DNA of 64,000 nucleotides from Lachnospiraceae bacterium. Its GTDB lineage: Bacteria; Bacillota; Clostridia; Lachnospirales; Lachnospiraceae. A program made the translations under genes and the position numbers. Within the stretch, counting starts at the first letter, position 1; every line of letters begins with the position of its first letter. Below, in pieces: positions 26,636 to 28,493 of this stretch. The notes under the pieces were generated by a model that saw only the letters and a program-made list of their open reading frames with translations, searched no databases and was not told the DNA's origin. Location: the NCBI GenBank assembly GCA_017938315.1, contig JAGBBV010000013.1:62001-126000 (forward strand). Direction: 5' to 3'.

Positions 26636-26768
26636 AAAAAGTAAAAAATCCTTAAAAAAATATTGAAATTTCTATTCAAACAGAGAGCTTTGTGGTAATA
26701 TATAAAAGGATTTGCATTTTTTGCCGTTTTATGACAAAAGGTGTAACGGAAAGGATTGGATCTTTGGC

Positions 26769-27869
26769 ATGAATAAGAAAAAGTGGATAAAAAATATCCC
26801 GTTACTTATAATAGAGATTATTGTTTTGGTTATTGCGATTGCCTTTTTATATATTACATTAAAAACAACAAATGAAGTGCAAAAAACTATAATTAACGAA
26901 GAAGATATTGTTGTAAACGAAGAAGTAAAGCAACAGGTAAAAGAAACAGAAGAAAAAGGTGTAGAAAATAAATACACAGGAATATATAATGTGGCGTTTT
27001 TTGGCGTGGATTCCAGGGATGGAACCCTTGGAAAGGGAAACCGCAGTGATACGATTATGATTTGCTCTGTAGATATGGATAAGCACGAGGTCAGATTAGT
27101 GTCCATATACAGGGATACCTATTTAAATGTAGGAAATGATTCATACCGTAAGTGTAATGTTGCCTATGCACTGGGCGGGCCCCAGCAGGCACTCAGTATG
27201 ATTAATATGAATACGGATATGTATATCACCGATTACGTGACTGTAGGCTTTGAAGGCGTTATGGAAGCGGTAGATGCACTGGGCGGCGTGGAAATAAATG
27301 TGACAGAAGCAGAAATCCCCCACTTAAACAATTATCAGATCAGTATGGTGGGAGAAAGCGAAGATAACGTTAACTTTACTGCCAAAGCAGGGGAGGATTA
27401 CATTCCGGTTACAGAGCCCGGACTTCAAACTTTGAATGGTCTTCAGGCTACGGCATACTGCAGAATCAGATATATAGGTAATGACTTTGCACGTACGGAA
27501 AGACAGAGAAATGTTCTGATTGCCATGCTGGAAAAGGCGAAAGTATCTTCTGTCGGTGAACTTACCGATGCCATGAACGCGGTGCTCCCACATGTGAGTA
27601 CATCGGTTGATATTGAAGATGTGGCATCTGTGCTTGGCATGGTTGGAGATTTCAAAGTGACTGTCAGCGAGGGATTTCCCTTTGACGGAATGCTGAATGG
27701 CGGAACCATTGGGTTAGAAGGCGCTTGTGTGGTTGCGACTTCCTTGGAAGATAATGTAGTGAAGTTGCATGAACTTTTGTTTGAGGATGAGGAATACGAG
27801 CCCACAAAAGAACTGAAGAGTTTTAGTGAAAAAATAATAGAAGATACACAGGATTATCTACAATACTGA
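26769..27869 (+). CDS. LytR-CpsA-Psr (LCP) family wall polymer transferase, 366 aa
   Basis: LCP enzymes move undecaprenyl-linked glycopolymers onto peptidoglycan at the outer face of the membrane. N-terminal basic stretch and one membrane anchor (residues 8-33), a charged linker, then the LCP domain with FFGVDSRD (about 78-85), RSDTIMICSV (catalytic-site Arg and Asp, about 93-102), VSIYRDTYL and the RIRYIGNDFARTERQRNVL signature (about 236-254). The start is ATG 26769; the longer frame from TTG 26712 adds residues that do not look like a membrane anchor. The C-terminal ~90 residues are less conserved. Terminator follows. Confidence 0.9.
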   Translation: MNKKKWIKNIPLLIIEIIVLVIAIAFLYITLKTTNEVQKTIINEEDIVVNEEVKQQVKETEEKGVENKYTGIYNVAFFGVDSRDGTLGKGNRSDTIMICSVDMDKHEVRLVSIYRDTYLNVGNDSYRKCNVAYALGGPQQALSMINMNTDMYITDYVTVGFEGVMEAVDALGGVEINVTEAEIPHLNNYQISMVGESEDNVNFTAKAGEDYIPVTEPGLQTLNGLQATAYCRIRYIGNDFARTERQRNVLIAMLEKAKVSSVGELTDAMNAVLPHVSTSVDIEDVASVLGMVGDFKVTVSEGFPFDGMLNGGTIGLEGACVVATSLEDNVVKLHELLFEDEEYEPTKELKSFSEKIIEDTQDYLQY

Positions 27870-27876
27870 TAAAATG

Positions 27877-27908
27877 AACAAAGCATCCAACCGATGCTTT
27901 GTTTTTTT
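27877..27908 (+). terminator. Rho-independent terminator of the LCP gene
   Basis: AACAAAGCATC, CAACC, GATGCTTTGTTTTTTT. It is also the left end of the large palindrome at 27877-28351. Confidence 0.85.
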
Positions 27909-28324
27909 CTACCCTCCTATTTTTTCATATTCGAAACAAAAGTATTTATAATCTTTCGTCAAATTTTTTAGAATATCCCTTTTTAATAAGCTACTGTCCG
28001 AAACAAACTGTCTGAGAAACCGATATTGCAACAGTGCTAACGCTATAAAACTTTTAAGAAAAATATAATCAGCACACTTTAAAAATGTGATTAACATCTC
28101 ATTCCAAAACTCGCTGACGCTCAAACATGTTGGAATGAGATGTACATAATTTAAAGTGTGCTGATTTATTTTTTACAAAAGTTTTATAAAGACGTTTAGC
28201 ACTTGTTGCAATAAACGGTTTCGAGTTCTTGTTTCGGACAGTTAATAGGCATTTAAAAAGGGATATTCAAAAAATTCCGAAAGATTATAACACTTTGTGA
28301 GAATATGAAAAATTTGGAGGCAGA

Positions 28325-28351
28325 AAAAAACAAGCACCGGATGGATGCTTG
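28325..28351 (-). terminator. Terminator for the tRNA-Trp strand
   Basis: Read on the reverse strand: CAAGCATCCATCCGGTGCTTG followed by seven T. The stem AAGCA/TGCTT is short but has a good T-tract; it is the mirror copy of the LCP terminator at the other end of the palindrome. Confidence 0.65.
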
Positions 28352-28373
28352 CACATTTTGGGTAAAAAAATAA

Positions 28374-28444
28374 CAGGGGCAGTAGGAATCGAACCCACAT
28401 CGACGGTTTTGGAGACCGCTGTTCTACCTTTGAACTATGCCCCT
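28374..28444 (-). tRNA. tRNA-Trp (CCA anticodon)
   Basis: On the reverse strand: acceptor AGGGGCA pairs with TGCCCCT, D arm GTTC/GAAC, anticodon stem GCGGT/ACCGT enclosing CTCCAAA (anticodon CCA), T arm GTGGG-TTCGATT-CCTAC, discriminator G. 71 nt; the 3' CCA is not encoded. It lies 49 bp after the lacI-type gene on the same strand. Confidence 0.95.
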
Positions 28445-28493
28445 ATTTCGTGGCTTTTTCAAACCACCGAAAGTTATTATATCTTATACACTG

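Follow-up and report, generated by a model that had tools for sequence, protein, structure and literature searches.

A 489-bp palindrome between an LCP gene and tRNA-Trp in a Lachnospiraceae genome is probably an old copy of a MITE-like palindromic mobile element

The window analysed here is a 64,000-nucleotide stretch of a Lachnospiraceae genome (assembly GCA_017938315.1, contig JAGBBV010000013.1, positions 62,001 to 126,000 of the forward strand). Within it, a LytR-CpsA-Psr (LCP) family gene converges with a tRNA-Trp gene across a gap of 505 bp, and this gap is occupied by a long palindrome that starts 1 nt past the LCP stop codon (27867-27869) and ends 13 nt short of the tRNA gene. The LCP assignment comes from a match to Pfam PF03816 on a longer frame; the mechanically called ORF begins at 26712, and we chose the ATG at 26769 as the start. 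The bounds of the core that the palindrome has in common with other copies were taken from the widest blastn matches, which span 39-404/407 of the query from window 27900-28330. The features of the locus are as follows.

26769-27869, plus strand: LCP family gene, flanking
27871-28359, no strand assigned: whole palindrome, 489 bp, from self-alignment and folding
27871-27937, no strand assigned: left outer arm, which pairs with the right outer arm, lies beyond the blastn match and holds the LCP terminator
27876-27904, plus strand: terminator-like hairpin 3' of LCP, from terminator calling
27938-28303, plus strand (the strand with the AAACTCGCT tip): core common to other copies, about 366 bp, from blastn
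28040-28194, plus strand: apical hairpin, source of covariance model R1
28107-28127, plus strand: conserved tip AAACTCGCTGACGCTCAAACA, which reads GCGTCAGC on the complement strand, with GCGNAGC in many relatives
28304-28359, no strand assigned: right outer arm, which mirrors the left and holds the terminator on the tRNA-Trp side
28330-28352, minus strand: terminator-like hairpin, from terminator calling, for transcripts arriving from the tRNA-Trp side
28373-28445, minus strand: tRNA-Trp(CCA), flanking, convergent with LCP

Gapped self-alignment gives arms that are 91% identical over 452 aligned positions. The region has a best self-reverse-complement score of 409; among 415 further 600-bp windows across the 64 kb, the mean is 26.5 and the maximum 76. 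When folded as RNA, the palindrome forms one hairpin of -225.2 kcal/mol; shuffled sequences have a mean of -89.7 kcal/mol (sd 6.0, z -22.5), and none of 100 matches its stability. Three terminator-like sites were called at the locus, as opposed to 0.5 in shuffles: one on the plus strand at 27876-27904, the same hairpin read on the minus strand (27903-27877), and a third on the minus strand at 28352-28330. The outer parts of the palindrome are mirror terminator-like hairpins. An initial annotation, made from the sequence alone, had described a near-palindrome of about 475 bp (27877-28351) that fills the gap between the two genes and whose edges act as terminators. Its coordinates are essentially right, the terminator calls bear out the latter idea for the two outermost hairpins, and the folding that it proposed as a check returned the single, highly stable hairpin given above. 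The two inverted arms are real and more alike than the 75-80% it had estimated by eye, and the inverted 20-mers starting CCTCC that it placed at the ends are present but sit inside the palindrome. It had also pointed to a 71-codon reverse frame, which does exist (27909-28124, TTG start) but is not conserved; in 12 copies of the window type, the longest ATG frames vary from 26 to 81 aa and lie on either strand.

A blastn search of the window genome (G000; 2.63 Mb, 40 contigs) returned matches at eight other places, one on the window contig and seven on other contigs, with E values from 2.3e-78 to 7.2e-49. Four of these sit at contig ends (C2, C8, C9, C40), so the copies in this genome possibly number six. 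Several draft contigs end inside the palindrome, which indicates that the element breaks assemblies. With 11 candidates scored per genome, true copies were found in 4 of 36 same-genus genomes, namely, G000, G017 (nine places), G007 (six), and G012 (four); matches in G049 and G058, which belong to two other families, were dropped because neither carries a palindrome. Palindrome length ranges over 194-499 bp and arm identity over 87-95% in twenty of the copies in the window genus; one more, L035, is a 79-bp fragment. Different copies of the window type are mostly 71-84% alike in pairwise comparison. Outside the core, the longer copies keep pairing for tens of bases, and the sequence there is mostly copy-specific. 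The exceptions are orthologous copies, which can be aligned outside the core, and L026 (G007) and L034 (G017), which occupy different loci and have the common ends GTAATAAGTAATATTATTTCC. The window type therefore has two properties of a MITE: it is present in several copies at unrelated loci, and it contains no conserved gene.

The corresponding gap in other members of the genus is short. The convergent LCP/tRNA-Trp spacing is 134 bp in G007, 132 bp in G017, and 69 bp in G005, which is too little to hold the palindrome. Among the 30 of 37 genus genomes that were read, the tRNA-Trp gene is convergent with LCP in 4 (G000, G007, G017, G005) and co-directional with it in 24, and no tRNA-Trp was found within 1.2 kb of LCP in 2. 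Insertion in the window lineage is the simpler reading of the short gaps, and loss would also fit. No target duplication is seen around the window copy, which is probably old.

Copies with an intact apex have a common tip (AAACTCGCTGACGCTCAAACA in the window) on stems that otherwise change. A covariance model, R1, which covers the apical 154 positions of 21 copies, finds matches in at least 10 of 397 family genomes, the window genome counted, with few candidates scored per genome. We drew 22 R1 loci from outside the window genome. In 21, a palindrome of 116-310 bp carries the tip, or a variant, on mostly unrelated stems, and in the last, L085, the palindrome has no tip at its centre. A search for the exact pattern AAACTCGCTNCGCTCRRACA gave 107 occurrences in 26 of the 397 family genomes, 47 of these in G420 alone, compared with 2 for the reversed control pattern. 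In 30 fetched loci with this pattern, the tip lies within a palindrome scoring at least 54 in 23 cases, within a weak one in 3, and outside the best palindrome in 4. Among named records, a tip variant is present in Lachnospiraceae RGIG2054, RGIG3113, and RGIG4653, and also in Clostridia AS23ysBPME_144, Peptoclostridium, and Peptostreptococcaceae; this organism list is partial, as the scan used a pattern that fits the TTCG tip variant. Nine of 16 tips drawn from these records lie inside the best palindrome. Across the family, the palindromes mostly measure 200-500 bp. In Clostridia AS23ysBPME_144, each of two loci (L126 and L132) carries a pair of tip hairpins spaced by about 200 bp. The two hairpins point the same way in L126; in L132 they face opposite ways and make a 377-bp composite palindrome. 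Relatives of the window element occur patchily in Lachnospiraceae and other Clostridia. Searches of the plasmid and phage collections gave no match to the window palindrome, and an element from the related genus g71 had no match in the plasmid collection and a single one in the phage collection (50% coverage, 73% identity, a record without annotation). The tip pattern was found in two stretches of viral contigs. The element is thus rare or absent in the plasmid and phage collections searched.

The clearest signs of mobility come from g71, represented by G420 and G106, where there are many copies 82-93% identical to a query copy, some across the inner 163 bp only. Thirty copies that we drew are palindromic over their whole length, which is 259-326 bp and most often 289 bp, and the element ends are GTWAC inverted repeats. 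A motif search located both ends in 23 of these 30 copies; the other 7, where it did not, went unscored. Direct repeats of 8 bp flank 11 of the 23 exactly and 19 with at most one mismatch; the other four have 2, 2, 3, and 6 mismatches. In a swapped-flank control, 1 of 506 pairs had at most one mismatch. When the ends were left free, 14 of 30 elements had exact 8-bp duplications, 11 had one mismatch, and 5 had two. These repeats are target duplications made by a transposase, and together with the GTWAC ends they indicate that the g71 element inserts in the manner of a cut-and-paste (DDE-type) transposon. Inverted ends with a target duplication of fixed length, a further property of MITEs, are therefore found in g71. 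In a mixed set of 71 elements there were two exact 8-bp duplications, one of them at L071, itself a g71 element, compared with 1.0 in the swap control; the ends of old copies may be eroded. The window type is linked to the g71 type by the tip, by architecture, and by one model match (53.5 bits, E 7.5e-8). A search of G106 for the empty site of L106 matched only one flank. We also note that L184 and L189 (G420) are 323-324 bp long instead of about 289 bp, with related inserts of about 35 bp in their right arms, and that G420 contains short derivatives with paired element ends 74-91 bp apart (C6:42094-42167, C13:6858-6938, C14:112836-112926), the first of which is without the apex. The initial annotation had raised the possibility of a fold-back mobile element and had proposed searching for the arms in other genomes. 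That search yielded further copies in the window genome and in the same genus; with copies at unrelated loci, orthologous gaps that are too short, and target duplications of 8 bp in g71, the suggestion is supported, and the absence of other copies and chance-level arm identity that it had named as fatal to this idea were not what we found.

Insertion sequences of the IS66 family have GTAA ends and make 8-bp duplications. The g71 elements likewise have 8-bp duplications and GTWA at their ends, whereas the rest of their ends differs: readable IS66 ends are GTAAGCGCCAAG, those of g71 elements GTWACNGTTCA. One element with IS66-like GTAA ends and an 8-bp duplication was seen in G106. An IS66 transposase was found in three of five genomes searched and is absent from G000 and G017, where it may have been lost. 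Both the mismatch of the ends and this absence speak against IS66 as the mover. No autonomous partner with the same ends was found among the IS66 elements examined or at unpaired GTWAC ends (16 of 30 fetched loci), and no transposase is among the 25 commonest Pfam families, out of 175, of 124 flanking ORFs. Loci L217 and L229 looked promising as a partner at first and were rejected; each holds a gene that we take to be of the LysR type from its sequence, with a remnant of the element at its end. The gene ends abut the element end at L217:594-1514 (G106) and L229:1561-2442 (G420), and the frame in G106 runs on into element sequence, with its stop within the GTAAC of the element. Other insertions were encountered in these genomes. 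In G106, a 1899-bp insertion sequence with ends GGTAGTGTCAAA/GATAGTGTCAAA is present three times (L203, L204, L205), with exact 8-bp duplications, and a 4292-bp unit in G420 (L209:1678-5968) has perfect 20-bp inverted ends, an exact 8-bp duplication, and an IS66-type match within.

The two arms of an element match copy by copy. In g71, the outer 60 bp show 97.2% identity between the arms of one copy versus 70% between copies, the best match of an arm is its own partner in 22 of 23 cases, and the third base of the end may be A or T, depending on the copy, with agreement between the two ends in all 23. Changes on both sides are seen at 26 of the 53 apical pairs in the window genus, with 94 such cells versus 22 one-sided ones. 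Three sites have orthologous copies, with orthology proven by both flanks (85% protein identity in one flank). At one common site, L005/L020 differ by 12 double changes, no G.T, no A.C, and 3 other mismatches; L005/L019 by 14 double changes, no G.T, 1 A.C, and no other mismatches; and L020/L019 by 13 double changes, 1 G.T, no A.C, and no other mismatches. These counts and those of the next pair are restricted to pairs that align in both copies, a restriction that favours paired cells. At a second site, L008/L014 show 11 double changes, 1 G.T, no A.C, and 2 other mismatches when one is reversed, and 4 double changes with 1 G.T, 1 A.C, and 1 other mismatch when aligned without reversal. At two of the three sites (L008/L014 and L010/L028), the core is inverted in G017 relative to both flanks; a second insertion into that site could give the same picture. 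Both the mirrored changes, with their few wobble intermediates, and the inverted centre fit template switching between the arms. Template switching between inverted repeats is reported to homogenise arms and invert spacers (PMC8604942, PMC8794818), and the hairpins described there likewise have paired changes, few wobble steps, and inversion of the centre; unlike them, the elements here are mobile bacterial palindromes of up to 500 bp. Inter-arm mismatches that are conserved indicate that homogenisation is incomplete. One orthologous copy, L029 (G007), lacks the apical part, and a shorter palindrome remains at the same site.

Mismatches between the arms were also examined for strand asymmetry. 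On the tip-complement strand of 73 elements, G.T exceeds A.C (236 vs 140) and A.G exceeds C.T (258 vs 133). The first direction is seen in 19 of 24 genus groups, with 4 opposite and 1 tied, and the second in 19 of 24, with 3 opposite and 2 tied; owing to shared ancestry, these counts are not as independent as they seem. The window genus agrees weakly for G.T versus A.C (69 to 49) and goes against the wider trend for A.G versus C.T (35 to 59). On the complement strand the tip contains GCGNAGC, an unusually stable mini-hairpin as DNA. In a DNA energy model, which may not hold the stability of d(GCGNAGC), the tip alone was no more stable than shuffles. By eye, 16 of 24 loci drawn have a first stem followed by a bulge of 4-6 nt on one side and then another stem; in 2 the bulge is split, and 6 (L075, L102, L121, L126, L131, L138) fit the pattern unclearly. 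It is likely that selection acts on a folded single strand.

That strand might be RNA, with the palindrome acting as a long 3' hairpin (a terminator, an RNA stabiliser, or an RNase III substrate) and selection on the transcript keeping the arms complementary. Gene context lends this some appeal: with ORFs called mechanically, and after setting aside 13 loci without a palindrome by rule and 6 duplicates out of 81, a gene 3' end lies on at least one side of 58 of 62 palindromes and within 20 bp of the edge in 34 of 62, and divergent gaps hold 4 of 62. The terminator-like hairpins at the edges of the window palindrome and the excess of G.T on the complement strand, in total and in most genus groups, point the same way; some sub-threshold matches to microRNA-precursor models show only a long hairpin. 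Against this stand the orthologous sites, where G.T steps number 0-1 versus 11-14 double changes, and the A.G/C.T counts of the window genus, which run opposite to the wider trend. On the tip strand of 20 window-genus copies, G.T is not above A.C either (79 vs 103). Orientation relative to transcription has no clear bias (23 to 14), Rfam at gathering score matched only two tRNAs in the window and no family on the hairpin, and the 8-bp duplications are left unexplained. An RNA function of the palindrome, including the role in RNA processing that the initial annotation had entertained, is accordingly not supported, and we consider a structural RNA an unlikely explanation of the whole.

Less likely again is a repeat of the REP/ERIC type that moves as a single-stranded hairpin by means of a tyrosine (Y1) transposase and not a DDE enzyme, even though the conserved hairpin tip and the strand bias in mismatches would suit it. 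Y1 transposition is not known to leave target duplications, which are present in g71, and the 25 commonest Pfam families of the flanking ORFs include no transposase. ERIC repeats are intergenic and palindromic. ERIC/IRU (PMC2759123) and REP/BIME (PMC3733652) repeats resemble the window family in being intergenic, palindromic, and placed beside gene 3' ends; such a location is reported for REPs (PMC3733652) and speaks for this alternative. The window family differs from both in its target duplications in g71 and in its greater length, mostly 200-500 bp where REP/BIME palindromes have 20-40 bp. A purely local event without any mobile element, in which a single replication error duplicated the terminator region in inverted orientation, would account for outer terminators that are mirror look-alikes and for outer arms that extend beyond the match to other copies, but is very improbable overall and refuted for the core, which is common to unrelated loci in G000 and in G007, G012, and G017; for the outer arms it may still hold.

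We consider it probable that the window palindrome is an old copy of a MITE-like mobile element, one that is non-coding and palindromic from end to end and whose arms have been rewritten by template switching. No conserved frame is seen in the element, and its transposase would act in trans. The window copy would have inserted between LCP and tRNA-Trp as g71 elements do, presumably after the window lineage split from the closest relatives compared. During replication, the arms may form hairpins in which template switching rewrites one arm from its partner. This would maintain the palindrome, mirror mutations and sometimes flip the centre. Flanking sequence could become mirrored too, copied outward until genes stop it, which would explain why the outer arms are locus-specific and why the two terminators at the window locus look alike. 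The tip, along with the spacing of stems and bulge in most loci, would be selected as a folded single strand, perhaps ssDNA.

Bacterial MITEs, which are non-autonomous derivatives of DDE transposons, are likewise short, multi-copy, and without a conserved frame, and have inverted ends and 8-bp target duplications in common with the g71 members. Unlike them, the palindromic family is one inverted repeat throughout, its arms match copy by copy, and it keeps a tip and a stem/bulge pattern over unrelated stems. In fold-back elements, long inverted repeats make up nearly the whole element. The window family is likewise nearly all inverted repeat, and differs from fold-back elements in its conserved apex, its narrow size class in g71, and its bacterial hosts. 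Literature searches, which included the tip sequence, GAGCGAAGCGAG, MITEs of Lachnospiraceae, and palindromic Clostridia MITEs, gave no description of the family among the papers listed. So far as these searches go, this palindromic family with concerted arms is new as a MITE-like variant.

A broader reading, which we put forward tentatively as possible though short of an even chance, is that these elements form an undescribed, widespread class of mobile DNA in Clostridia that is defined by structure: a conserved hairpin apex (complement CTGTYYGAGCGNAGCGAGTTT), a first stem of about 13-16 bp, a one-sided bulge of 4-6 nt in most loci, further stems, and arms that are free to be rewritten since their pairing is kept up by template switching. 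A folded single strand would then present the apex as a recognition site. Were this the case, the element would be selected for its fold at the DNA level, with nearly all other sequence changeable, the ends included. The family points to a transposase and to a reader of the conserved apex. Its paired changes with few wobble steps resemble RNA covariation and seem to arise at the DNA level, which is a warning for the discovery of structured RNAs by covariation, as such elements would score as RNAs. The same changes make the family a natural bacterial system for template switching between inverted repeats, at many loci and in many species.
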